Shown piece by piece: positions 1 to 37,578 of a stretch of DNA of 37,578 bases. The notes under the pieces were generated by a model. It ran no database searches, was not told where the DNA came from, and saw nothing but the letters and a program-made list of their open reading frames with translations. Position 1 is the first letter of the stretch; each line of letters opens with the position of its first letter. The translations under genes were made by a program, and so were the position numbers. This stretch comes from a virus: positions 1-37,578 of the IMG/VR virus record IMGVR_UViG_3300020433_000019; one strand, written 5' to 3'.

Positions 1-539
1 CGGTCATGTGCGGCTTTTACTCTTTCGTCTAACGGTCTAACATTCTTTTCACAATCTGATTTAAAACTAGAAATAATATTATCTAGTTTTGTTTGTGCTT
101 TTTCGTCAAGTCCGACTAGATCAGAAATATTAAATACACTTGTTCCCTTAAAGGTTAACTTCATGTAAAATTCTTGATTTCCGTCTTTGTCCAATTTGGG
201 TGAACCGTCTTCATTCTTTAGATCAATCTTTATTGGATTTGGTCGTAGAATTTTGGCGGCTTTACTTCCCTTTCTTGGTACACAATTTAAATCTTTTTTC
301 GCTTGGGCAAATCCTATCCATAAAGGCAAGTGATGACCTCTCAAAGCCATATACATTTCTAGGATAATTGGATTAGCTCCAGAATACTTGTGATTAGTTA
401 AGAAGTTAGTATGTCCAGCTTGCTCTGTTGCTGTCCATTCTTTTTTCCAAGTTTTGTCAAGATTGCCAGAATCTAAAAGACTCATAAAATCTTCTAAAAT
501 CTGTTCTTCAATTTTGATGTTCTTCTTGGTGAAAGTCAT
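1..539 (-). CDS. ArdC-like antirestriction / ssDNA-binding protein, C-terminus beyond window
   Basis: The reading frame opens at ATG 539 and stays open for 179 codons to the left edge, so only the N-terminal part is present. It has the ArdC N-terminal domain (DUF1738) pattern: an early W-K-K-E-W, then H-T-N-F-L-T-N-H-K-Y-S-G-x-N, then LPLWIGFAQAKK, then PRKGSKAAKILRP, and a late VFNISD segment. In known ArdC proteins this domain binds single-stranded DNA and protects incoming DNA from restriction; a C-terminal metalloprotease domain is often fused but cannot be judged here. GGAG lies 8 bases before the ATG, and a strong host-type promoter lies just upstream (588-616). It follows the terminase and control region, so in T7 terms it would be the first early gene, the slot of ocr. 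The family call is by motif reading only. Confidence 0.8.
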   Translation of the reverse strand, partial: MTFTKKNIKIEEQILEDFMSLLDSGNLDKTWKKEWTATEQAGHTNFLTNHKYSGANPIILEMYMALRGHHLPLWIGFAQAKKDLNCVPRKGSKAAKILRPNPIKIDLKNEDGSPKLDKDGNQEFYMKLTFKGTSVFNISDLVGLDEKAQTKLDNIISSFKSDCEKNVRPLDERVKAAHD

Positions 540-3521: not shown

Positions 3522-3761
3522 ATGGAAGATCAAGAGCCAAGTAAAGTTGAAACCATTGTCAAAGTCTGCGTACTTTTATGGTCGGCAACGCTATTATCTC
3601 TCTCGTACTACGAACCGCCATCTGGTAAAAAGATTGTAGATTTTGATCCGACATTTATTGCAAGTATTTTCAGTGCTTCCACTGCGTCACTTGGGTTCTC
3701 GATAAAAAAGAAAAAAGATACTATAGTAGATAATAAGAACTCTAAAGTTGGCATCAAATGA
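3522..3761 (+). CDS. Small membrane protein, holin candidate
   Basis: The 79-residue protein has two hydrophobic stretches, near residues 14-29 (VCVLLWSATLLSLSYY) and 43-60 (DPTFIASIFSASTASLGF), followed by a lysine-rich tail (IKKKKD). Size, two segments and a charged tail fit a small holin, and the place between tail fibres and small terminase is where T7 carries its holin gene 17.5. No family signature proves it. It is the first of three plus-strand genes in an otherwise minus-strand genome; its TGA overlaps the next ATG (ATGA), so the two are probably translationally coupled. I see no convincing promoter in the 65-base divergent gap. Confidence 0.72.
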   Translation: MEDQEPSKVETIVKVCVLLWSATLLSLSYYEPPSGKKIVDFDPTFIASIFSASTASLGFSIKKKKDTIVDNKNSKVGIK

Positions 3762-4117
3762 AAAAACTATTATTACTAGGTTTGTTTTTAGTTGCACCTT
3801 GTTACGCAAACGGAGTGCCAACGTGGACTACTGGTTCAAGTAACAGAACTGAAAACACGACACAAACCATAACTCGCAGCGTAGTCACAGAAAAATATGG
3901 GTCTACTATAAATACTTGGGAAGGTTCTAATATAAGTGTGGCTGCATCTGCTGGTATATCTGGCGGTGATGCAGTATTTACAGTTGCAGATACTTCAAAG
4001 GATTGGTCATTGAATGTGACCTCTAGATCATCAGGTTTAATGATTGAAAAGATCACACAGAATGACACGATCAACACTACTAGCGTTATCACTTCTTTGT
4101 CTGTCTTTAGTCAGTAA
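3758..4117 (+). CDS. Secreted protein with signal peptide, function unknown
   Basis: The 119-residue protein starts MKKLLLLGLFLVAPCYA, a clear signal peptide with likely cleavage after CYA near residue 18. The Cys is preceded by Pro, so it is not a good lipobox. The mature part is rich in Ser and Thr, mostly predicted beta, with TENTTQTITRSVVTEKYG and SVAASAGISGGDAVFTV. It overlaps the upstream gene by ATGA and the next gene by more than 50 bases in another frame. A periplasmic or cell-surface role is inferred from the signal peptide; I do not recognise the family. Confidence 0.8.
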   Translation: MKKLLLLGLFLVAPCYANGVPTWTTGSSNRTENTTQTITRSVVTEKYGSTINTWEGSNISVAASAGISGGDAVFTVADTSKDWSLNVTSRSSGLMIEKITQNDTINTTSVITSLSVFSQ

Positions 4118-4589
4118 TAAAGTAAGAGCTGAAGGCGATACAAACGTACAGGCTCAACCAAATGCGATTGGTAATTCCAGTATTATCAATCAGAATATGA
4201 ATATTAATAATGGAATGACAGGTAAACAGCAGTTTGGAAATTTAGTTTGTAGTCAACCTACTATGGCAATAACTCCTTTTTATACAGGTAATGATGCACA
4301 AGGAGAAGAGACATATAGCATTAACGAAGGTTGGGGAGTTCAAATGAGTTTTATGATACCTCTGGGAGATAATCAAACTTGTAACGAATTATCCAAAGTA
4401 AAGCTAGACCTAGCCAAAGAAGAACTAGACAAGCAAGTGCATGATAAACAGCTCGTTCGTGTTTTGAAATGTAGTCAGCTTCACGCAAGTGGCTATATGA
4501 TAAACCCTGCTTCTAAATACGCATACATCTGTAATGATGTCATTAATATACGAAGTTATGTTAAAGCTAATCCAGAAAAATTTAAGTAG
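4062..4589 (+). CDS. Secreted phage protein with signal peptide, function unknown
   Basis: Begun at ATG 4062, the N-terminus MTRSTLLALSLLCLSLVSNK is a good signal peptide with cleavage after VRA. A TTG at 4044 in the same frame would add six residues. The mature protein has an Asn-rich stretch (NSSIINQNMNINNG), PFYTGNDAQG, GWGVQMSFMIPLGDNQTC, a charged helix SKVKLDLAKEELDKQ, then VRVLKCSQLHASGY and ICNDVINI. From memory this layout resembles a conserved secreted protein of marine cyanophages, also of unknown role. Four Cys in the mature part suggest disulfides in the periplasm. It ends convergently with the minus-strand gene at 4760. Confidence 0.8.
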   Translation: MTRSTLLALSLLCLSLVSNKVRAEGDTNVQAQPNAIGNSSIINQNMNINNGMTGKQQFGNLVCSQPTMAITPFYTGNDAQGEETYSINEGWGVQMSFMIPLGDNQTCNELSKVKLDLAKEELDKQVHDKQLVRVLKCSQLHASGYMINPASKYAYICNDVINIRSYVKANPEKFK

Positions 4590-4759: not shown

Positions 4760-5230
4760 TTATTTCTTTTTATCTGCAATCTCTTTCTTAAGTACTTTTT
4801 TAAATATTTTTGTCATTACTTTCTTTAACTGATTAACAACGCTTTGCAAAACTATTGAACCTGTAACCGCAGCAGTAGCACTAACACCAGATGCTATGAC
4901 ACTTGATGCAATTACTTCTGGCGAAGGCACTGGAAATTCGTAGTTTATAAATGGTATATTAAATGTAGCTACTCCTTCTTCAGTTGATAAAATTTCTGTG
5001 GTTTTTGGCAGGTTGTTCGGTATTGTCTCTGGTGTTAATTGTGGCACTTCCTCCTTTGAAGATGATGTTTCTTCTTCAACAGAAGATTCCTGACCTCCCA
5101 GACCAGACTCTACCTGTTCCAAACTCGGTAAAAGGATTGGGTCGAGATATGGTTCCTCTGCCACAGGCGGATAAAAAATTGTACTAGGAGGAGTTAAAGT
5201 TTCTGGTATATCAATATTTGGATAATCCAA
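4760..5230 (-). CDS. Membrane-anchored acidic protein, function unknown
   Basis: I do not recognise this 156-residue protein. The first 100 residues are acidic and Pro/Glu/Ser-rich (SSVEEETSSSKEEVPQLTPE), likely extended. Residues near 108-130 form a hydrophobic Ala/Ser/Val segment (VIASSVIASGVSATAAVTGS), followed by a basic amphipathic tail (QLKKVMTKIFKKVLKKE). This layout, one membrane span with a cationic end, fits a lysis accessory or membrane-associated protein, but nothing proves it. The start is TTG 5230, directly after the TAA of the upstream gene (TAATTG), with GGGAG just before. It is the last gene of the minus-strand tail block before the plus-strand island. Confidence 0.75.
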   Translation of the reverse strand: MDYPNIDIPETLTPPSTIFYPPVAEEPYLDPILLPSLEQVESGLGGQESSVEEETSSSKEEVPQLTPETIPNNLPKTTEILSTEEGVATFNIPFINYEFPVPSPEVIASSVIASGVSATAAVTGSIVLQSVVNQLKKVMTKIFKKVLKKEIADKKK

Positions 5231-5488
5231 TTACTCCCAATTAATCTCTTTTTTTGCTTCCGCTAATTTATCAGAATCAGTAATCTTAGTTAAAGTAACA
5301 GTAGTATTAGTGCATATACTAGGGTCAAAGCCTGTTTCTGCTACAACAACAGTTCCTATTTTTAACCATCTTTTTAATTTTTTAGGGTCATCTGTTACTT
5401 CTCTTATACCAGTACCCCACGCTTCTTCTTTACCTGTATAAGCTAAACGGTAAAACTCTGTGTAATCAGTTGCTTTAAATTGTGGCAT
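5231..5488 (-). CDS. Small tail-region protein, function unknown
   Basis: I start this 85-residue protein at ATG 5488 (MPQFKATDYTEFYRLAYTG), because AGGAG lies 8 bases upstream and the frame begins 4 bases after the giant fibre's stop. Upstream extension would overlap the fibre gene with no supporting signal. It contains a charged helix (DDPKKLKRWLKIG) and a beta-like segment VTLTKI. The place right after the fibre suggests a small tail or fibre-assembly accessory protein; no family is recognised. Confidence 0.75.
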   Translation of the reverse strand: MPQFKATDYTEFYRLAYTGKEEAWGTGIREVTDDPKKLKRWLKIGTVVVAETGFDPSICTNTTVTLTKITDSDKLAEAKKEINWE

Positions 5489-5492
5489 TAGA

Positions 5493-8400
5493 TTAATCTC
5501 CTGTAAATTGGTTCCAGTTAGATCGTGTCCAACTGTAACTAGAGTTCTGATAATTACCACCCATATACCAAGTATTATCTCCATGTGTGTACCACTCTCC
5601 TGACTTAGTAATAATAGAACTAGAAGTTTCACTATTACCTGAGTGATGATGTGAAAATCCACCTTCAGCAATCATTTCGGGTGTACCCCACCAAGGTACA
5701 AAATAATTTGACCATGAGTTGTTTTGTGCAAAATAAGCGTTGTTACCGTCAGCTTCGTAATATGGTGTAGTTATATAGTTCCAGTAACCTGCAACAAATA
5801 GCCTTCCTTCATCATCTTCTAATACAACTCTGTTTGCATCATCTTGATCTCCACCTCTAGGGTGAATCTTCACAATAGTTCCTATTGCTAATTTTTTATA
5901 GTTTGCGTGTGTTGTATCATCACGAAATGAATGTAGAGTTCCAATTACTTCATTTGGTCTGGAATCATTAGAACCACTTGTATTTAAACTTGGGTCACCA
6001 AAATCTCTAAACTGTATCTCTGCACCAAACCAATCTGTACTGTTGTTGTTGGCACTTGTAGTTTTACCAGTTCCCTGTTGTCCATAAGAGTTGTAACCAG
6101 TAGCATATACTTTCTGGTTATAGCCAGTAGTTCCTCCGTCAGTAATAAAGTATAAAGTTGAATATCTGCAATTATTACAAGCCATATATACTACCTTTTG
6201 ATTATCACTATTCCACATAGTACTTGAGTTAGTTAGTAGCTCTGGCAAAGTCAAGTTACCTGCACTACTACCATAAACTCCACCACTTGCTCCATATGCG
6301 TGACCATGATAACCACAGAAATATACTTTACCTTCATCAGTTAATATCCAAACTTTACCTTCATCATCACCATCTTGGTTTGCAATAACATGAACTACCT
6401 TTTTACCATTAATAGGTGAACCTGTTACTGCTGTCATTTCTTGTGGTGTTGTGTAATGGCTAGTAGTGTTACCTAAACCAAGCTGACCATTACCATTTCT
6501 ACCCCAAGACCATAGTTTACCTGACTCTGTTATTGCATAAACGGAAGTATAATAATAACCACTTGAGCATATGTATATAATCTTTTCATTACCAACTCTA
6601 CTCATAGGCATTTGTTTTGCGTAATAGTTAGTGTTAGTACTGTTATCTCCTAACTGTCCATATCCGTTATAACCCCATGTATATAGCTTTCCGTTTGTAT
6701 CTATACATCTAGTGGAGTAGTAACTATCGTTATCTCCTGAGAAAGTATGAGCATTAGAAAACTCCATCATCTTAATTTTAGGGTGATTTGCTCCTGTTAA
6801 TCTTGCTCCTGAGTCATCATAAAATACAACACCCATAGCTGCTGCGTTTAAATCCCACGTAGTACCGTTACCCCATATTCCATAACCTGCATAACCACCC
6901 GCCATGACCATGCCATTTTCAAACAACTGGAAACCATGCTTACCTGATTTGTGCATTTGCATTAATCTAGGCCATAAGTGTTTTAACTTTCCATTTTGGT
7001 CAAACAAATCAAGAGTATTACCGTTTAAATCAGTTAATAAGTGTGCATAGTCAGGGTGTCCAGCTAGTGCTTCTTCCCAGAATTTAGGTGTTCTATTACA
7101 CCCATCAGCAGGGAAATCATGTTGTCCACTATAAGCACTATGACCATAGACTCCATAGCCACTACCATAAGTGTAGTCATAACCACTTGTATGATAGTGA
7201 TTACCAAATTCAAAATACTTTCTCTTACCTAAAGCACCTGCTCTTCTATAACCTGCCATAGTACAACCATATAAAAATCCTCTACCACTTTTTTTAAGGT
7301 ATGCAGGTAAAGCCCATAAACTTTCTGTATAGTTATTTATTGTTGCGTTTGGAAATAGACAGAATCCTTTGACTAAATCTTTTGCTACTTCATAAGGCTG
7401 TTGAACTATATCTTTTTTATAAACAGTAGTACCCTCCCAAGAAGGAACTAACTTTAAATCTTTTAACGATAAAGTTATACTATCTGCTTGGTTTGCTTCA
7501 TCACGAATAATAACTGTAGCCAACGTAGAACCAACAGGAGGTGTATAAGTTATCGTTCCTCCGTTAGTCACAAACTGAGGTACAGCACTACCGTCTGTTA
7601 TTCTTCCACCGTTACCTGCTCCGCTATACCCACTAGCAGCAGGGTCTTTAATTGAATAAGTTAAACCGTTAGCAGGGAAAGTAAATGAATATGATTTTCC
7701 TTTTGTAACATTAACAGCACTTGATAATCCATTTTTTCGATAAAGCGTTGGTGTTGTTGATGAAGTATTTAAAGTACCCTGACCCATAGCACTATGAACA
7801 GAGCAACCATATTTATTAACAGATAAAGCAGGTGCTTTTGGAGTATATGTAATCGTTGCTCCCGCTTGACCTGCTGTACCGCTTCTTACAATTCCAAAGT
7901 CAGCTTCATTATATCCAGTAGTATTAACATAGGTATAAGTAGAACTAGCTGAACCTGTACCTGATTGATATGCAAAAGCAAAAACGTGGCCTGTATTACT
8001 AGCGTCACTAACATCAAAAACATACTGTGAACCAATCTTGATAGTTAGTGTAGGTCTTTCAACAGTTCCAGAAAGACTACCGCCACTAAGATGAAATTGA
8101 TTTTGATTGTTTACTGCTGCTACTGTAACTGTATAATTAACAGTTTCATAAGTTTCTCTTTCATCACCTGTTAACCATGCAACTCTAGTTCCATTAAAAA
8201 GTATTGGATTATATTCATAGTTACCTTCATTTGGTATATCTTCTAAAGGTTTTTCTATAACACTTAACTGAGAACCTACTGGACCAATAGGCAACTGAAC
8301 ATTTGTTGTATCATCATTATCTCTAAATATCATTCCTCCTGACGCATTTAATACAGCAGCACTAGGAGCATTAACAAGAAGTTTCCAAATCGAAGGTACA

Positions 8401-8717
8401 GTAGGGGGTGCTGACGCAGCGTATAAACCGCTAGTATTACCTGTAACTAATAAATATGAAGCGTTATTATATCTAACTAAATCTCCTTTGTAATAAGTAC
8501 CTGTAGACCAATCGCCCGCATAGTTTATACCTTCTGTCATCTTATCCCAAGCTGTGCCTAAAGCGTGTGCAGTAGCAGGGTTTGAGCCAGTACTATTTTG
8601 AACCGCAACGTAGGCAGAACCATTGTAATAAACTACGTCATCTGTTTCATAGGTAGAGGTCGTAAGCCACTCTCCTCTCCAATTAAACTTGAGTTTACCT
8701 AAATCAATTTGTGCCAT
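5493..8717 (-). CDS. Giant tail fibre / receptor-binding protein with CBM-like, cupredoxin-like and RCC1-like domains
   Basis: The 1074-residue protein is probably the distal host-recognition fibre. Near residues 11-60 and 65-115 are two repeats of the carbohydrate-binding CBM5/12 type (W-x-Y-x-x-D-D-V-V-Y-Y-N-G-S-A-Y). Residues about 200-315 look like a cupredoxin: H243 and a C305-x2-H308-x2-M311 cluster (YGCSVHSAMG) provide a full type-1 copper ligand set. Residues about 670-1000 carry RCC1-type propeller repeats such as KLYTWGYNGYGQLGD and KLWSWGRNGNGQLGLG, at 55-70 residue spacing. It is two bases after the adaptor fibre and is followed by a small protein. Domain calls are by motif; copper binding is inferred. 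Confidence 0.85.
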   Translation of the reverse strand: MAQIDLGKLKFNWRGEWLTTSTYETDDVVYYNGSAYVAVQNSTGSNPATAHALGTAWDKMTEGINYAGDWSTGTYYKGDLVRYNNASYLLVTGNTSGLYAASAPPTVPSIWKLLVNAPSAAVLNASGGMIFRDNDDTTNVQLPIGPVGSQLSVIEKPLEDIPNEGNYEYNPILFNGTRVAWLTGDERETYETVNYTVTVAAVNNQNQFHLSGGSLSGTVERPTLTIKIGSQYVFDVSDASNTGHVFAFAYQSGTGSASSTYTYVNTTGYNEADFGIVRSGTAGQAGATITYTPKAPALSVNKYGCSVHSAMGQGTLNTSSTTPTLYRKNGLSSAVNVTKGKSYSFTFPANGLTYSIKDPAASGYSGAGNGGRITDGSAVPQFVTNGGTITYTPPVGSTLATVIIRDEANQADSITLSLKDLKLVPSWEGTTVYKKDIVQQPYEVAKDLVKGFCLFPNATINNYTESLWALPAYLKKSGRGFLYGCTMAGYRRAGALGKRKYFEFGNHYHTSGYDYTYGSGYGVYGHSAYSGQHDFPADGCNRTPKFWEEALAGHPDYAHLLTDLNGNTLDLFDQNGKLKHLWPRLMQMHKSGKHGFQLFENGMVMAGGYAGYGIWGNGTTWDLNAAAMGVVFYDDSGARLTGANHPKIKMMEFSNAHTFSGDNDSYYSTRCIDTNGKLYTWGYNGYGQLGDNSTNTNYYAKQMPMSRVGNEKIIYICSSGYYYTSVYAITESGKLWSWGRNGNGQLGLGNTTSHYTTPQEMTAVTGSPINGKKVVHVIANQDGDDEGKVWILTDEGKVYFCGYHGHAYGASGGVYGSSAGNLTLPELLTNSSTMWNSDNQKVVYMACNNCRYSTLYFITDGGTTGYNQKVYATGYNSYGQQGTGKTTSANNNSTDWFGAEIQFRDFGDPSLNTSGSNDSRPNEVIGTLHSFRDDTTHANYKKLAIGTIVKIHPRGGDQDDANRVVLEDDEGRLFVAGYWNYITTPYYEADGNNAYFAQNNSWSNYFVPWWGTPEMIAEGGFSHHHSGNSETSSSIITKSGEWYTHGDNTWYMGGNYQNSSYSWTRSNWNQFTGD

Positions 8718-27127: not shown

Positions 27128-27328
27128 TTAGTTCTCCAATACACTAGACGTTAACATAGTTTCTCTCTGTCTTTTTTGCTGTTCGATTAAATAATCTACT
27201 ACAAATCTTTTACCAGCTTCATACCATATCTGTCTGTCAGACATAGACAAGTCAGGGTGACGTTGAGGAAAGGCAAGACTTAAACCTTCTATTAGTTCAT
27301 CAGTAATAGTAGGTAAACCTTTTTCCAC
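27128..27328 (-). CDS. Small conserved-type protein opening the virion block, function unknown
   Basis: The 66-residue protein starts at GTG 27328 (MEKGLPTITDELIEGLSLAF), continues PQRHPDLSMSDRQIWYEAGK and ends with a helix RFVVDYLIEQQKRQRE. The pattern P-x-L-T/S-x-E-L-I-E-x-L, then CPDL-like and SDR-x-W is, from memory, common in small proteins next to podoviral portal genes. It is the first gene after the hairpin pair at 27379-27454. No Shine-Dalgarno is obvious, so the start is less certain. Confidence 0.75.
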   Translation of the reverse strand: MEKGLPTITDELIEGLSLAFPQRHPDLSMSDRQIWYEAGKRFVVDYLIEQQKRQRETMLTSSVLEN

Positions 27329-27411: not shown

Positions 27412-27454
27412 AAAAAAACTCTGAGTTTGGTTAGCTCCTCTCAGGGTTTTTTTT
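27412..27454 (-). terminator. Bidirectional terminator-like hairpin after the exonuclease gene
   Basis: The minus strand reads A-run, then AACCCTGAG, a 14-base loop, then CTCAGAG, then seven T residues; one C-A mismatch interrupts the stem. On the plus strand the same stem has a U-G pair instead and is followed by eight T residues. The loop carries GGAGCTAAC, the Shine-Dalgarno block seen before early genes. It overlaps the exonuclease TAA, separating replication from virion genes. Confidence 0.7.
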
Positions 27455-28187
27455 ATGGGTTCCAAAGTTTTACTTCACCTGTATTGTAATTGTAATCTCC
27501 GCTTCTTAGTATTCTTGTCAGCCTTGCATTGAGAATAGCATCAGCCATTGTATATCCTTTCTTCTCGTAAGTCTCTAAGACCTTGTGCCATAAAGCTTCT
27601 TTAGTATCAGGTACATCAGCCAGTATCTTAGAAGCTGTGACCATACCCATACCTTTAATACCTATTATCCCATCACCTGAGTCACCTGCCATAGCCATTT
27701 CAAACCAACGTCTATCAGCTTTGCGTTGTGTGATATGTTCGATTTCATCTTCAGCTATCAGCTTACAAGGTATAGTCTTCATGTCTTTATCTACAGATAC
27801 TATGATTGGGTCTTTGTATTTAGTTGAACCTGCCAAGAGTCCAAGCACATCATCACCTTCTAATCCTTCATAAGACTCAGAGATATAATTTTGTTTTATT
27901 TGTTCGATAATACTTTTCAAAGCTAAAGGCTTACGCTTACCTATCCTGTTGATCTTGTACTCTGGGAATATCTCATGTCTAAATGTTGGATAAGAAGTAA
28001 AGCACATAACAACTTCTCGATCTCCACCTGCAATAGATTTGTATATATCCAATCTGTTATCTATAAGCTGAAGTATATCTCGTTCATCTGAATGTAAGGT
28101 ATGCTCCCACTCATTCCATCTTGTGTCTTGTTCACACGCACAACATGAATTGTAGATCAACCAATCAGCATCAATAAGTAAGGTCAT
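27453..28187 (-). CDS. 5'-3' exonuclease (T7 gp6-like, FEN family)
   Basis: This 244-residue nuclease (T7 gp6: 300) removes RNA primers and helps degrade host DNA. FEN-family features are TLLIDADWLIYNSC at the N-terminus, YEGLEGDDVLGLLA near 105-118, IIVSVDKDMKTIPC, and the helix-three-turn-helix block AMAGDSGDGIIGIKGMG near 167-183. The acidic metal ligands (D7, E/D in LEGDD, D in VDKD, DSGD) are present. GGAG precedes ATG 28187. It follows the helicase by 3 bases, where T7 would have DNA polymerase. Confidence 0.93.
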   Translation of the reverse strand: MTLLIDADWLIYNSCCACEQDTRWNEWEHTLHSDERDILQLIDNRLDIYKSIAGGDREVVMCFTSYPTFRHEIFPEYKINRIGKRKPLALKSIIEQIKQNYISESYEGLEGDDVLGLLAGSTKYKDPIIVSVDKDMKTIPCKLIAEDEIEHITQRKADRRWFEMAMAGDSGDGIIGIKGMGMVTASKILADVPDTKEALWHKVLETYEKKGYTMADAILNARLTRILRSGDYNYNTGEVKLWNP

Positions 28188-28190
28188 AGT

Positions 28191-29807
28191 TTATTCTCCA
28201 AAGATACTTTCATAAACTTCTAACCGACCTGTCTTCTGGTCGTACAATAACTTGTCAACTTCTCCTGTCATACCTGTGTGTCTAGACTTAAGTATTTTTA
28301 AAGTTAATCGTTGTCTTTCACTGGCTTCTCCTACCTGATTTCTTGATGCACCTAACACGACATCAGATAACTGAAGTAGTCCAGAGCTGCCCTTCAAATC
28401 ACTGGTAGATATTTCTCTTCCTTCTTCATGTGCCTGTCCCTGTGGTCTGCGTAGATGACTAACAAGTATCAAAGCTATGCCAGTTGATTCACATAAACTT
28501 CTTAGCTTAGTCATAGTCACATCTATAGCTCGTCTTTCATTATCTAAATCTAAACCAGAAGTAACTATTGTTATATGATCTAGTATGATTATCTGTACCC
28601 CATCAACAGTAGCCAAGTACCGTATCTGTTCTAGTAAAGTATCAGGTTCAAGTGAACCAAAGTGATTATATAAAAATAGATTTCTTGTAGACGTTAGCCT
28701 GTCAAATGATTTCTTTAATTCATCTTGGTCTACTGTTTCTTCTGCTGCCAGATGTAAAGGTATATTCAAATCAATACCAACTAATCCCTGTAGAGTTCTT
28801 TGTACTGATTCTTCTAGTCCAATATACCCTATCTTAAGATTCCTTTTGACCAAGAAATGATATGCCAATTCTCTGCAAATCGTAGACTTGCCAGCTCCAC
28901 TACCTGACGCAACAGTAAACAGTTGAGTAGGAAAGATGCCCTGCGTATATTCATTTAATTTAGGAAACGGAAAGTCTGATATTGGTTTACTTGTTTCTTT
29001 AATAAACAAATCCCATGCGTCAGCTCCATTAATTAAACTGTCTGGTCTTGATGGTCTAGCGTTCCATAACTTCTTTCTTACTATGTCTTCTTCATTTAAA
29101 ACTAAATGATCGTTAACATCATTACGATCTAACTTGGCTATAGCAACTTTGCCCTTGGGTAAAACTTCTAAACATTTATCTGCTGCCTTCATGCCAGCAA
29201 CATCATTATCAAAACAAATAACGATACGACAAAAGGTATCTAACCATTTATAGTTTGCTGCCAAATACTTAGCTGCTGATTGTACTCCTGACGGAATGGA
29301 GACACAGGGAAACTTGTTACCTTGGATTTGCGAACCAGAAAGGCAATCAACTTCGCCCTCGAAAACGCTTATGAATACTGAACCGTTACCTCCATGCTGT
29401 CTCCATAGATGCTGTCCCCATAACATTACGTTAGACATATCACCTATCCATATAAACTTCTTATCTTGAAAGCGTATGTGCTGTGCAACATCATTACCTT
29501 TCTGATCTTTGTATGTGGCTACCTGTACTGGCTGCCCTCTATACTCTGCTATCCCATAACCAAATAGTTCGCAAGTCTCCTTAGTGATTCCACGTTTAGG
29601 TAGAGCCATTGGCTTGACAGGTAAAAGTTTTGGATTTGTTTTCTTGATCGGTATGATGTTAGCTGTCATCTTCTTTTCTTTTTTATTTGGGTAGTAAGTG
29701 TAACCGCAATCCATAGTGAAGCAGTGTTCGTGACCATCATCAAAGACAGCACAGTTTTTCTTGCCACACTCAGGGCAAACTTTCTTAGCTTTGTAGCTTG
29801 ACTTCAT
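28191..29807 (-). CDS. DNA primase-helicase (T7 gp4-like)
   Basis: This bifunctional enzyme primes and unwinds at the fork. I choose ATG 29807 (MKSSYKAKKVCPECGKKNC), giving 538 residues (T7 gp4: 566), because the zinc cysteines follow 10 residues later as in T7; an upstream ATG at 29870 would add 21 residues overlapping the endonuclease. Cys11, 14, 29 and 34 lie in the primase zinc domain. TOPRIM shows FEGEVD and ICFDNDVAGMKA. The RecA-like helicase has SGSGAGKST near 301-309, then IIILDHIT and LVSHLRRP. An internal Met at 29669, right after the zinc domain, could give a helicase-only form like T7 gp4B. Confidence 0.94.
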   Translation of the reverse strand: MKSSYKAKKVCPECGKKNCAVFDDGHEHCFTMDCGYTYYPNKKEKKMTANIIPIKKTNPKLLPVKPMALPKRGITKETCELFGYGIAEYRGQPVQVATYKDQKGNDVAQHIRFQDKKFIWIGDMSNVMLWGQHLWRQHGGNGSVFISVFEGEVDCLSGSQIQGNKFPCVSIPSGVQSAAKYLAANYKWLDTFCRIVICFDNDVAGMKAADKCLEVLPKGKVAIAKLDRNDVNDHLVLNEEDIVRKKLWNARPSRPDSLINGADAWDLFIKETSKPISDFPFPKLNEYTQGIFPTQLFTVASGSGAGKSTICRELAYHFLVKRNLKIGYIGLEESVQRTLQGLVGIDLNIPLHLAAEETVDQDELKKSFDRLTSTRNLFLYNHFGSLEPDTLLEQIRYLATVDGVQIIILDHITIVTSGLDLDNERRAIDVTMTKLRSLCESTGIALILVSHLRRPQGQAHEEGREISTSDLKGSSGLLQLSDVVLGASRNQVGEASERQRLTLKILKSRHTGMTGEVDKLLYDQKTGRLEVYESIFGE

Positions 29808-30216
29808 ACCAATCGTCAGGAATAAATTTTTCACAGTATTGGAACCCATGTCTCGTACACCAATCGGCATACGAGATAGAGTTCTTGGCCTTGGATAATT
29901 TGGTCTTGCTGTTTTGAAAACAGAACCTTATATCTAGGTCGGGTCGTTTCTTCTTAATTGCAAGATGCTTGCGTCTATCTTCTTTCGAGAAGTAGCCCTT
30001 CGTTTCAACAATAAAATTGTTGAGTATAAAGTCAGGCCGATAGGTGCAAGTAATTTCATAGTCAATGCTGATTGTTTCATAGGTAAAGATAATTTTCTTT
30101 TTGATTAGTTTGTCAGCAAATTGACTTTCAAATTTACTCTTGTATTTAGAAGTCGGCTGCTGTTGGGGTCGGCACTTTTTCTTCATAGCTTGATGGTGCT
30201 TCTGCTTCAAAGTCAC
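29785..30216 (-). CDS. Endonuclease I, Holliday-junction resolvase (T7 gp3-like)
   Basis: The about 143-residue nuclease (T7 gp3: 149) resolves branched DNA and helps digest host DNA. FESQFADKLIKKKIIFTYE, then YRPDFILNNFIVETKGYFSK, then RRKHLAIKKKRPDLDIRF and YADWCTRHGFQYCEKFIPDD follow T7 gp3 in order; the catalytic E, D (PDF) and E-x-K (ETKG) are present. GTG 30216 follows GGAGGAG by 5 bases; GTG 30228 and ATG 30186 are alternatives. All overlap the 3' end of the single-stranded DNA-binding protein gene, so the two are coupled. Confidence 0.92.
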   Translation of the reverse strand: MTLKQKHHQAMKKKCRPQQQPTSKYKSKFESQFADKLIKKKIIFTYETISIDYEITCTYRPDFILNNFIVETKGYFSKEDRRKHLAIKKKRPDLDIRFCFQNSKTKLSKAKNSISYADWCTRHGFQYCEKFIPDDWYEVKLQS

Positions 30217-30808
30217 TAGCTCCTCCACCTGTAAATGGAACTATATTTCTAAAGCAAATACTTAATGGAATACATTTAATACCCACACCATTTCCGCCAG
30301 CATCATAACCCTTGGCAAGGAATGACATCTGACCTGTGGTTTCTGGGTCTATCTTTTCTAGCTTCTGTCTCTGTTCTTCACCCATAAGCTTTAGGTCACT
30401 GGTGTAAAAGGCAACAGGTGTATTGTTATATGGCTGTCCTGTATTTGGATTGACACCACTAGCTTTCTTACTAACCCTAATAACTAAACCGTCTTCTTCA
30501 AAAGACCAAGGGAAAGATGGCTCACCTGTCTTCAGACTTTTAGTAAGAGTAAACTTTCTATCTGGGTATGCTTCTTTCAATGCACCCTTCCATCTTTCAA
30601 GTAGTTGCTCTAGCTGATCTACTATAAACTGTGTAGCTTCAACCAGTTCTCCTTTGTCATCTTTCATTTGTGTACCCACAGGAATGATGATGTCACCTTT
30701 CCATTTTCTTACACCTTTGTATTCATCTGGGGTGACGTAGTAAGACCAACGAAAACGAGTTCCATTAGGTGAGACTAGCTTGATAGTCTCAGGCTTGAGT
30801 TCTGCCAT
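30146..30808 (-). CDS. Single-stranded DNA-binding protein (T7 gp2.5-like)
   Basis: The 220 residues (T7 gp2.5: 232) cover single-stranded DNA and recruit replication enzymes. A beta-rich core includes RFRWSYYVTPDEYKGVRKWK near 18-37, FPWSFEEDGLVIRVSKKASG, and IKCIPLSICFRNIVPFTGG. The acidic C-terminus ends PTPTAADF, and a terminal aromatic after acidic residues is the hallmark of gp2.5. It is the first gene after the RNA polymerase, in T7 order, and its 3' end overlaps the endonuclease. Confidence 0.9.
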   Translation of the reverse strand: MAELKPETIKLVSPNGTRFRWSYYVTPDEYKGVRKWKGDIIIPVGTQMKDDKGELVEATQFIVDQLEQLLERWKGALKEAYPDRKFTLTKSLKTGEPSFPWSFEEDGLVIRVSKKASGVNPNTGQPYNNTPVAFYTSDLKLMGEEQRQKLEKIDPETTGQMSFLAKGYDAGGNGVGIKCIPLSICFRNIVPFTGGGASDFEAEAPSSYEEKVPTPTAADF

Positions 30809-33272: not shown

Positions 33273-33471
33273 GTAATAAACCTCTCAAAGCTTCAAGTTC
33301 TTGTATCTTTTTTACACACAATTCAACTGAGTTATTGATCTTATTTTTCTTTGATAAATCATTTTCTTTTTGTGCTAGATCAGTTAAATATTTTAAAAAT
33401 ATTTCTTGTTCATTTAACTCTTTTCTAATTGAGTCATTGATAAAAAAGATTTGACTATCTGTAAACTTCAT
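33265..33471 (-). CDS. Small charged helical protein, function unknown
   Basis: The 68-residue protein MKFTDSQIFFINDSIRKELN... is almost entirely helical and highly charged, with a coiled-coil-like KYLTDLAQKENDLSKKNKIN. It starts at the last base of the integrase stop and overlaps the polymerase start by 8 bases, so the three are probably one translational unit. No family is recognised. An excisionase-like role would fit next to an integrase, but no winged-helix or HTH pattern is visible. Confidence 0.72.
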   Translation of the reverse strand: MKFTDSQIFFINDSIRKELNEQEIFLKYLTDLAQKENDLSKKNKINNSVELCVKKIQELEALRGLLHE

Positions 33472-34331
33472 CAGTTCAGTACCTCCACTATGCTATGTAA
33501 TGCCCTTGGCTGTAGGTGTGCGTAGATCATTGTAGTTTTAATATCATCATGCCCTAACCAATCCTTAACAAGTAAGAGCTGGCACCCACGCTGAACCAAA
33601 CGACTCGCACAAGTGTGGCGGCATAGGTGTAAGGTGTAAAACTTTTTGTCTTTATATCCTAAGTCTCGTCTAGCTTCTTGCCATATAGAATTAAGTTTGT
33701 CGTAACTTAGATTGAAAACCCTATCAAAATCTTTTTTGTCATAACAATATAACTTCATATATTCTTTTACTCTATTGGTCATTGGTACAGCTACAGCATT
33801 ATCATTCTTTCTTTCATTAAAATTTATTTGGTTATTATCAAAGTCAACATATCTTTTTTCTAGTCCAAGCAATTCACTAACCCGACACCCTAAGTCTATG
33901 AGACAAGAGATAATATAAAAAGCTTGTGTATAAATTTTTTTATCTGTATCAAAAGATTTATCCCTTATGTAATTTAATAATTCTTCTTCCATATCTTGAG
34001 TTAAGTATTCAACCTTTTGTTTCTTTACTCTGTGTCTTTTGGGTAGCTTAACTTCTTTTATATATCCATCATCAATCATTCTTTCTAAAACTATTTTTAA
34101 ATAACCCCTCTTTGTATTTACTACAGCTCTACTATTTTTTAATTTAATTAATAAATAATCCATCATTTTATTTATGACAGGTGTAGTAATTTTATTTACT
34201 GGCAAGTCTCCAATAGCTTGAATGTTATGGTTCATAGCTGTAAGAAAATTCTTTGCTGAATCTGTGCCACTGTAGTGTGTTCTGTAAACAATCTTTGTAG
34301 CTTCAGATAATGTTGGAATAGTTTTTTTCAT
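33471..34331 (-). CDS. int: Tyrosine-family integrase
   Basis: This 286-residue site-specific recombinase would insert the phage DNA into the host chromosome. The catalytic set is complete: R150 (DLGCRVSELLGL), K175 (NERKNDNAV), H235-x-x-R238 (HLCRHTCASRL), H261 (WLGHDDIKTT) and nucleophile Y270 (MIYAHL). The first 100 residues form the SAM-like core-binding domain. ATG 34331 overlaps the stop of the NrdR-like gene (ATGA). It sits just upstream of the RNA polymerase gene, the arrangement seen in temperate-type T7-like marine phages. A possible att core lies in the next gene upstream. Confidence 0.95.
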   Translation of the reverse strand: MKKTIPTLSEATKIVYRTHYSGTDSAKNFLTAMNHNIQAIGDLPVNKITTPVINKMMDYLLIKLKNSRAVVNTKRGYLKIVLERMIDDGYIKEVKLPKRHRVKKQKVEYLTQDMEEELLNYIRDKSFDTDKKIYTQAFYIISCLIDLGCRVSELLGLEKRYVDFDNNQINFNERKNDNAVAVPMTNRVKEYMKLYCYDKKDFDRVFNLSYDKLNSIWQEARRDLGYKDKKFYTLHLCRHTCASRLVQRGCQLLLVKDWLGHDDIKTTMIYAHLQPRALHSIVEVLN

Positions 34332-34552
34332 GTGGTTAAATCCTTAATCATTTTTAAAAATCCATCACTGCTATAATCTGCTGTTCGCATTTCATAGGTG
34401 CTGTATTTGTGGCCGCAAACAAGACAGGTTCGACTCCTCCATATAAAAGGAATCGAACCATCTTGTGAATCTATATTGTGACCTCTAGTAGATAGCCTAG
34501 TTCTAGTATTGTTTACTTGATTCTCTAGGCTTCCACACTTGGTACACTTCAT
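34328..34552 (-). CDS. NrdR-like zinc-ribbon protein
   Basis: The 74-residue protein resembles the zinc-ribbon part of NrdR, the repressor of ribonucleotide reductase genes: MKCTKCGSLENQVNNTR at the start, then WRSRTCLVCGHKYSTYEMR. The C-x2-C ... C-x2-C pairs (C3, C6, C43, C46) and the R-S-R-x-C and Y-S-T-Y-E segments match NrdR's RRRxC and F-T-T-x-E. The ATP-cone that follows in NrdR is absent. It overlaps the integrase by ATGA and the previous gene by ATGA. DNA binding is inferred; a target cannot be named. Confidence 0.78.
   Translation of the reverse strand: MKCTKCGSLENQVNNTRTRLSTRGHNIDSQDGSIPFIWRSRTCLVCGHKYSTYEMRTADYSSDGFLKMIKDLTT
34427..34459. repeat. tRNA T-arm-like inverted repeat, possible att core
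   Basis: GGTTCGACTCC and GGAATCGAACC (10 of 11 paired) flank an 11-base AT-rich centre, inside the NrdR-like gene and next to the integrase. GGTTCGANTCC is the conserved T-loop pattern of tRNA genes, which are common targets of tyrosine integrases. Neither arm extends into a complete T-stem or acceptor, so the site is tentative. Confidence 0.35.
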
Positions 34553-36095: not shown

Positions 36096-36602
36096 CTAGA
36101 CATATCTTCTATATTTCAAGAAAATATCTCTTTGTTCGTTAACAACTTTCCAGTATTTAGTCCATCTAGATTTTTGTTTATAGCTAAAAGGATAAGTATT
36201 CTTTTGTTTAGCTATTTCTTTATCATCTAAATGTAAAGTATCTGAAAGCGTTTGTGTTTTTAAAATCTTAGAAATTTCAATTTTCTTTCTAAGTCTTTTA
36301 ATCTGATCTTCATACTCTTGTATGTCGTCATCATGTTCTTGTAAGTCTTTAAAGATATGATGCGTTTGATAACTAACTGATGCGTTATCGCTGAAGTCTC
36401 CCATAATGTTGAACTTAGTGCGGTAACTGTCATCATCTATTAGATGTTCAAGATCAGATATTGAACAGATAAATTCGTCATCTTCATATTCATAATCTGA
36501 ATCAGGATTTTCTAGTTCGTGTTTATCCTTAAGTGCTTGGTACTCTTTGGATAATTCTCTTAGTCTTCTCTTGGCTAGAGATTTGTAGTTAGTCTTAACC
36601 AT
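36096..36602 (-). CDS. Charged coiled-coil early protein, function unknown
   Basis: The 168-residue protein begins MVKTNYKSLAKRRLRELSKE and is very rich in charged residues. An acidic stretch ENPDSDYEYEDDEF lies near 31-44, a coiled-coil-like HDDDIQEYEDQIKRLRKKIE near 89-110, and a basic aromatic end (KSRWTKYWKVVNEQ). No family is recognised. GGAGCTAAC precedes ATG 36602 by 8 bases, and the 25 bases from the Shine-Dalgarno region to codon 3 are identical to those of the gene at 36976. A terminator follows the stop. Confidence 0.77.
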   Translation of the reverse strand: MVKTNYKSLAKRRLRELSKEYQALKDKHELENPDSDYEYEDDEFICSISDLEHLIDDDSYRTKFNIMGDFSDNASVSYQTHHIFKDLQEHDDDIQEYEDQIKRLRKKIEISKILKTQTLSDTLHLDDKEIAKQKNTYPFSYKQKSRWTKYWKVVNEQRDIFLKYRRYV

Positions 36603-36648
36603 AATTAGTTAGCTCCTATTAAGTGTAAAAAGTAAGGGTGTAAAGATA

Positions 36649-36677
36649 CCTAGAAGATGAAACAAGCACCTTCTAGG
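36649..36677 (-). repeat. Intergenic hairpin, third member of the early-gene cassette set
   Basis: CCTAGAAG and CTTCTAGG (8 bp, perfect) surround a 13-base loop in the gap between two early genes. It is not identical to the two repeated double hairpins at 37006 and 37414 but occupies the same place. No T-run follows, so it is unlikely to be a simple terminator. Confidence 0.6.
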
Positions 36678-36691
36678 CGATTCTGAGAGGA

Positions 36692-36976
36692 CTAAACCAC
36701 TACTTGATAGCGATTTAGTAACGGTATTCTGTTACCGTCTTGATCGGTCATAAGTCCAGCGTCATCATTCCAGTTCCAAGACTCAGTATTAGAAACATCA
36801 AAAACCAAGGCGGTCAATATAGTTTCTTTTGGAAACTTATATATTTTTCCCCAAGTTTTCTTTGCTTCTTTGCAAGCTCTGGTAGAAATAATAATCTCGG
36901 CTTCTTCGCCACTGGCATATGAAACACCGTGGCCAGCGTGTACTATTGCACACACATTTTTCTTTTTGTTAACCAT
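36692..36976 (-). CDS. Small early protein, function unknown
   Basis: The 94-residue protein begins MVNKKKNVCAIVHAGHGVSY, has EEAEIIISTRACKEAKKTWG and ends NDDAGLMTDQDGNRIPLLNR plus YQVVV. The pattern looks like a small alpha/beta protein. No family is recognised. GGAGCTAAC precedes ATG 36976 with the same spacing and sequence as at 36602. It is flanked by hairpin cassettes on both sides. Confidence 0.77.
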   Translation of the reverse strand: MVNKKKNVCAIVHAGHGVSYASGEEAEIIISTRACKEAKKTWGKIYKFPKETILTALVFDVSNTESWNWNDDAGLMTDQDGNRIPLLNRYQVVV

Positions 36977-37005
36977 AATTAGTTAGCTCCTATAAGGTTT
37001 AAAAG

Positions 37006-37061
37006 TGAAAGGTTATGAGCCTTTCAGAGAGGGCTTATCAGCCCTCTAGGAAAGATTCAAA
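37006..37061 (-). repeat. Double-hairpin intergenic repeat, copy A
   Basis: Two perfect hairpins lie side by side. One is TGAAAGG/CCTTTCA (37006-37026, 7-base loop) and the other AGAGGGCT/AGCCCTCT (37028-37047, 4-base loop). The block recurs at 37414-37470 with only the loop bases and one added T changed. It starts at the stop codon of the preceding gene and precedes the next one. No T-run follows. T7 separates early genes with RNase III sites, so mRNA processing is a possible role. Confidence 0.75.
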
Positions 37062-37383
37062 ATCCTAAGTTGTGCTTCTTGTTTAGCTCTGCACAATCGA
37101 CTCTGCAATATTTGTTGTAATCTTCCAAGTTATCCATAATCATATCCGCCGCATTCGTAATCATACGAACATAGATTTTCCAATTCTTTCTGTCTTGGTC
37201 GGCTGGAAATTCGTAGTCTTCACCAATAAGAAAATATAAATCTCTTACTGCATGATGGATTTCAAAACTTGAATATTCTTCTTTATCGTAAAATCTTCCC
37301 TCGAATTCCTGTTGAGCTATGAAAGGCACAGCATCAAATAAATTCATAGGTATTCTATTTGGGTTGAGCTGGTTTTTGTACAT
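37057..37383 (-). CDS. Small early protein, function unknown
   Basis: The 108-residue protein begins MYKNQLNPNRIPMNLFDAVP and contains FEIHHAVRDLYFLIGEDYEF and NWKIYVRMITNAADMIMDNL. It is acidic and helical; the two Cys in NKYCRVDCAELNKKH might bind metal. No family is recognised. No Shine-Dalgarno precedes ATG 37383, only an A-run after TTAACCACA, so the internal Met at codon 13 is an alternative start. The stop lies within the double-hairpin repeat. Confidence 0.75.
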   Translation of the reverse strand: MYKNQLNPNRIPMNLFDAVPFIAQQEFEGRFYDKEEYSSFEIHHAVRDLYFLIGEDYEFPADQDRKNWKIYVRMITNAADMIMDNLEDYNKYCRVDCAELNKKHNLGF

Positions 37384-37413
37384 GATTTTTTTTGTGGTTA
37401 ATTGGTTTACATT

Positions 37414-37470
37414 TGAAAGGTTTATGAGCCTTTCAGAGAGGGCTGAATAGCCCTCTAGGAAAGATTCAAA
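37414..37470 (-). repeat. Double-hairpin intergenic repeat, copy B
   Basis: The same two stems as copy A: TGAAAGG/CCTTTCA (37414-37435, 8-base loop) and AGAGGGCT/AGCCCTCT (37437-37456, 4-base loop GAAT). Conserved stems with changed loop bases suggest that the structure is what matters. It lies between the partial gene at the right edge and the gene at 37383. Confidence 0.75.
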
Positions 37471-37476
37471 GTAAAG

Positions 37477-37578
37477 TTACTCTTCACCTATTACAAGATC
37501 AGCCGCTTTAACAGAATTGCTAAATACTTTCATAAGTTCTGTTGCTGGACTCTTAGCATTTCTAATACCTTTCGCCCA
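37477..37578 (-). CDS. C-terminal end of a gene cut by the right edge
   Basis: The last 33 residues of a gene whose start lies beyond the window: WAKGIRNAKSPATELMKVFS, then NSVKAADLVIGEE and a TAA at 37477. The segment looks like a real helical protein end. If the molecule is circular, this may be the end of the ArdC-like gene at the left edge. Joining the two edges directly puts them out of frame, and one extra base (or 1 mod 3) at the junction would restore the frame. Confidence 0.5.
   Translation of the reverse strand, partial: WAKGIRNAKSPATELMKVFSNSVKAADLVIGEE

Follow-up and report, generated by a model that had tools for sequence, protein, structure and literature searches.

Replication block and gene content of the window

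The window (the whole stretch of DNA analysed, namely a 37,578-base IMG/VR record) was a linear contig. In agreement with the original prediction, it harbored the T7-ordered genes for RNA polymerase (RNAP), SSB, endonuclease I, primase-helicase, and exonuclease, all on the minus strand (Table 1). RNAP residues D500, D730, K569, Y577, and H709 aligned with the T7 catalytic and rNTP-selecting positions. The originally predicted start of the primase-helicase gene was the likely one and matched the start annotated in Prochlorococcus phage P-SCSP2 (residue 22 of the longer ORF), and the predicted spacing of 3 bases from helicase stop to exonuclease start was exact. A 74-aa protein (34328 to 34552, minus strand), encoded beside the integrase gene, contained an NrdR-like zinc ribbon (PF22811 1e-8) and was also found in P-SCSP2 (53%); it is a possible regulator.

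Table 1. Replication genes, neighboring genes, and terminal gene parts of the window
Feature	Position	Strand	Evidence and remarks
ArdC-type antirestriction gene, N-terminal part	3..539	-	PF08401 2.4e-14; residues 1-178 of P-SCSP2 ArdC; gene cut by left contig end
Conserved 66-aa protein	27128..27328	-	phrog_4970 9.6e-10; also in P-SCSP2, P-SCSP1a, and L235 record
5'-3' exonuclease (gp6-type)	27453..28187	-	PF02739 7.2e-14; phrog_107 8.6e-49
Helicase-exonuclease junction, 3 bases	28188..28190		Place of the DNA polymerase gene in polymerase-bearing relatives
Primase-helicase (gp4-type)	28191..29807 (ORF open to 29870)	-	phrog_239 1.5e-158; Helic-prim_T7_N, Toprim_2, DnaB_C
Endonuclease I (gp3-type)	29785..30228	-	PF05367 1.8e-35
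gp2.5-type SSB, C-terminus ...TAADF	30146..30808	-	phrog_112 6.9e-9; 81% to P-SCSP2 gene 09; tail survey
T7-type single-subunit RNA polymerase, 798 aa	30876..33272	-	PF00940 2.7e-74; phrog_414 3e-182
Tyrosine integrase	33471..34331	-	PF00589 2e-21; 79% to P-SCSP2 integrase
ArdC-type antirestriction gene, C-terminal part	37480..37578	-	P-SCSP2 ArdC residues 295-316 match 37480-37545; frame open to contig end

The two ends of the window lay in one and the same ArdC gene, and they were bridged by the contig L005 (93.6% identical to the window at the left end), in which window positions 1 and 37578 corresponded to 2010 and 2327, respectively; the missing 316 bp fell inside ArdC. Because L005 mapped these 316 bases between the window ends, the window was a nearly complete genome of ~37.9 kb. 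The premise of the original prediction, that the window is nearly the whole genome, was thereby upheld, and no polymerase gene lay beyond the window edges, where the ArdC junction and L005 left 316 bp only.

No tRNA genes were found in the window, and a repeat search of the window gave no clear phage promoter family. Two pairs of near-identical direct repeats (36595 to 37470) flanked two small ORFs: (i) 54 nt (91%) at 37008 and 37417, a possible exchange or termination element with a GC-rich palindrome in its unit, and (ii) 45 nt (84%) at 36595 and 36969. Three ORFs at 3522 to 4589 (plus strand) were located on the strand opposite to the replication genes; the ORFs 3758 to 4117 and 4044 to 4589 displayed 86 to 99% identity to P-SCSP2 and P-SCSP1a, compared to 78% and 25% for RNAP, which suggests that this cassette was exchanged recently. 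For the 181-aa product, 55 phage records gave matches, almost all of them named cyanophages; the neighboring 79-aa ORF was only about 33% identical. At the tail-fiber position, a 1074-aa protein (5493 to 8717, minus strand) carried RCC1-like repeats, matched CBM_5_12 weakly, and was mostly unlike its P-SCSP2 counterpart.

Comparison with P-SCSP2 and other known phages

By sequence comparison, the window was assigned as a sister of P-SCSP2 (accession number OM416780) within the MPP-C clade of Autographiviridae and as an ocean cyanobacteria virus; the host is probably Prochlorococcus, given that P-SCSP2 was isolated on strain MED4. The MPP-C clade was described as lacking DNA polymerase by Cai et al. 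(PMC9860041), and the polymerase loss itself is already published for close relatives. The window shared with this clade the lack of a DNA polymerase gene, the T7-like architecture, the genome size of 37.3 to 37.9 kb (37,578 bp, with about 316 bp missing), and the grouping with P-SCSP1 and P-SCSP2 (in the tree of helicase, one of the nine core genes). The lack of the auxiliary metabolic genes psbA, hli, mazG, rnr, talC, and thyX is a further MPP-C trait (PMC9860041); four of these six (psbA, hli, rnr, and thyX) were queried and had no match in the window, with the portal and exonuclease controls matched.

P-SCSP2 and the window had the same gene order, both with an integrase, an exonuclease immediately after the helicase, and no DNA polymerase, with identities of 94.6% for helicase, 78% for RNAP, 95% for TerL, and 90% for MCP, and about 78 to 88% DNA identity in long aligned blocks; they differed in the strongly divergent gp15, gp16, and tail-fiber-position proteins, and the window ORFs at 35.3 to 36.0 kb had no P-SCSP2 match. 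The P-SCSP1a-u phages of MPP-C were likewise polymerase-less, the P-SCSP1a helicase ending in ...FFGEKL and its SSB in ..EEF, but P-SCSP1a had no detected integrase homologue and its RNAP was only 25% identical to that of the window. The uncultured phage MedDCM-OCT-S08-C159 (Jalkavirus) displayed the same polymerase-less junction and a helicase of 74% identity, but it was represented by a 10.3-kb fragment only. Pelagiphage HTVC120P and roseophage CRP-361, two polymerase-bearing Autographiviridae, contained the same ordered set of integrase, RNAP, SSB, endonuclease I, primase-helicase, and exonuclease genes, but their polymerase was placed between helicase and exonuclease and their helicases had acidic ..DF ends.

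An unannotated 139-aa ORF at 5209 to 5628 of P-SCSP2 (L001, OM416780) was identified as endonuclease I (PF05367 6.2e-37), 80% identical to that of the window; this contrasts with the statement of Cai et al. that P-SCSP2 has no recognizable endonuclease gene (PMC9860041).

Absence of DNA polymerase

The helicase-exonuclease interval was occupied by the DNA polymerase gene in HTVC120P, CRP-361, HTVC200P, P-SSP7, and T7. The claimed lack of polymerase A in the window was borne out in three ways: (i) the family A profile PF00476 had no match anywhere in the window record; (ii) tblastn with five T7-type polymerases (E<=1), applied to the window, two isolates, the first 80 relatives, and polymerase-bearing control loci, gave nothing in the window and only three 36-residue matches in the relatives (E 0.4 to 1), while all polymerase-bearing controls were matched; and (iii) Pfam scans of 20 ORFs, which included the large unknown ones and covered the small ORFs and well-assigned structural genes in part, revealed no polymerase domain. 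Furthermore, no conserved unassigned gene of polymerase size was common to the window, P-SCSP2, P-SCSP1a, and the L235 record. At the level of sequence searches, the absence was thus shown to be real, in that no recognizable polymerase was present in the genome; profiles alone could miss a very divergent one.

A phage polymerase too divergent for known profiles might be hidden in a large unknown ORF, an option left open by Cai et al. (PMC9860041), and two ORFs of 880 and 1777 aa indeed had no informative Pfam match. These two, however, followed the gp13- and gp14-like genes in the T7 gp15/gp16 order, displayed only 27% and 32% identity to P-SCSP2, and, unlike the replication genes, were unmatched at E 1e-3 in both P-SCSP1a and the L235 record. 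Such a hidden enzyme is improbable, because a clade-wide polymerase should be conserved and these ORFs were poorly conserved. A term search of the P-SCSP1u cryo-EM paper gave nothing useful on the internal proteins.

Single-subunit RNAPs are homologous to family A DNA polymerases, and RNAP was kept in all four genomes compared, both of which would favor a phage RNAP that doubles as DNA polymerase. This double role is nevertheless highly improbable: the ribonucleotide-selecting positions aligned with T7 Y639/H784 were Tyr/His in all seven RNAPs (7/7), those of T7 and polymerase-bearing phages included.

Breadth and age of the polymerase-less clade

Among 80 IMG/VR relatives found with the helicase of the window, the distance between helicase and exonuclease measured -4 to +3 nt in 77, and the other three were uninformative (two ended too early, and one had a partial exonuclease match only). 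PF00476 had no match in 13 IMG/VR records, two isolates, and 10 further records, while the polymerase-bearing records were all matched (3/3). The relatives were metagenome contigs, many of them incomplete, and the shared junction therefore weighs more than the absence per record. The loss, proposed earlier for checking as a clade trait, was established as such by the junction and the PF00476 results.

The window being a linear IMG/VR contig, the missing polymerase could in theory be an assembly artefact or lie beyond the window edges. There is next to no chance of this, given that the same junction was present in the 77 relatives, which came from many contigs assembled separately, and in P-SCSP2 and P-SCSP1a, both recorded as complete genomes, and that L005 joined the window ends over 316 bp. 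A polymerase located outside the window or lost in assembly was thus ruled out by L005, the ArdC junction, the relatives, and the isolates.

In a tree built from the helicases of dereplicated loci, the polymerase-less tips, 15 in all with the window and 14 representatives, composed one clade with support 1.0, inside which the window was placed next to P-SCSP2; the stem was long (0.63), and the exact sister group among polymerase-bearing phages was weakly supported (0.19 and 0.82). The tree showed the polymerase as lost in a single clade, as one event. The ratio of polymerase-less to polymerase-bearing loci depended on the chosen queries. A helicase alignment search further recovered L232 to L237, which were 49 to 58% identical to the window helicase and had no polymerase at the junction. 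L235 belonged to a 39.7-kb record with no PolA and 57.2% GC, and L236 had 58.4% GC, compared to 35.0% in the window and 34 to 39% in P-SCSP2 and P-SCSP1a; both L235 and L236 branched outside the group of P-SCSP1 and P-SCSP2. These sequence comparisons hint at a loss both older and more widespread than the published isolates suggest. Among the papers listed in a literature search, none was relevant to other polymerase-less T7-like phages.

The L235 record (L304 and L305) displayed 41% RNAP and 75% TerL identity to P-SCSP1a, and no integrase homologue was found in it; marine Synechococcus, or else some other marine bacterium of high GC content, may be its host.

Helicase tail and SSB tip

The T7 polymerase gp5 has basic patches to which the acidic C-terminal tail of gp4 attaches, and the terminal Phe of this tail is essential for the attachment (PMC12593628; PMC12230644). 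Two components of the T7-type replisome were lacking in the window, namely the family A polymerase gp5 and the Phe-ended acidic primase-helicase tail (the helicase ended in ...VYESIFGE), while the third, a gp2.5-type SSB with an acidic/aromatic C-terminal tip, was present. The helicase end was aromatic in 66 of the 84 polymerase-bearing representatives versus 2 of the 14 polymerase-less ones, with mean acidic residues in the tail of 5.15 versus 1.5, and ..DF was retained at the helicase end of L284 and L250, the closest polymerase-bearing relatives. This correlation was not independent, because the loss was one event on the tree, and some polymerase-bearing relatives, such as HTVC200P, also had no aromatic helicase end. 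The SSB end was aromatic in every polymerase-less locus measured (83/83, i.e., 81 Phe and 2 Trp). A term search of Cai et al. (main text) gave no mention of the helicase-tail difference, and tail loss with SSB-tip retention is a modest addition to the published picture.

Proposed mode of DNA replication

We consider it quite likely that the window represents a P-SCSP2-like phage whose polymerase was lost in a distant ancestor, and that a host polymerase copies the genome unwound and primed by the phage helicase, with no T7-type contact between them. The phage RNAP would make its own transcripts; the primase-helicase would unwind and prime the DNA; the SSB would coat single strands; the exonuclease and endonuclease I would probably remove primers and process DNA ends and branches; and host DNA polymerase, either Pol I or Pol III, would do the copying. 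The use of a host enzyme and its coupling are both inferred. Such coupling must differ from that of T7, because the helicase has no T7-type tail, and it would probably occur via another contact; one candidate is the aromatic tip that the SSB has kept. One narrow pattern for a beta-clamp-like pentapeptide had no match in seven window proteins, and there was therefore no sequence hint for Pol III recruitment.

The MPP-C isolates, although devoid of DNA polymerase, form plaques on Prochlorococcus MED4 (PMC9860041). A need for a helper phage, which would co-infect the cell and provide the polymerase, is possible in principle, but nothing in favor of it was found, and the isolates were plaque-purified on MED4 and two of them grow in one-step curves (PMC9860041); we give this option almost no weight. 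Under copying by the host polymerase, the latent periods of 12 h for P-SCSP1a and 15 h for P-SCSP1u, compared to 6 to 8 h (PMC9860041), fit slower replication, with other causes possible.

Plant organelles pair a T7-type primase-helicase (Twinkle) with Pol I-like, bacterial-type polymerases (PMC12230644). This likeness is a mechanism analogy only, since the plant system is nuclear-encoded and organellar and its helicase tail is positively charged; by this analogy, a phage-host hybrid replisome would be workable, as plant organelles show. On balance, we lean slightly toward a broader reading, by which an old and wide T7-like clade, reaching past the published Prochlorococcus phages to high-GC genomes, swapped its polymerase for the host enzyme, dropped the docking tail, and couples primase-helicase and SSB to the bacterial replicase.

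Significance

In surface ocean water, MPP-C phages account for a large share of cyanopodovirus reads (43.5%), and their mode of DNA copying was stated as an open question by their discoverers (PMC9860041). With the helicase tip lost and the SSB tip kept, this question becomes one of simple binding tests. The wider clade would make the loss older than the published isolates suggest, and the phages that escape DNA polymerase markers may extend beyond MPP-C.
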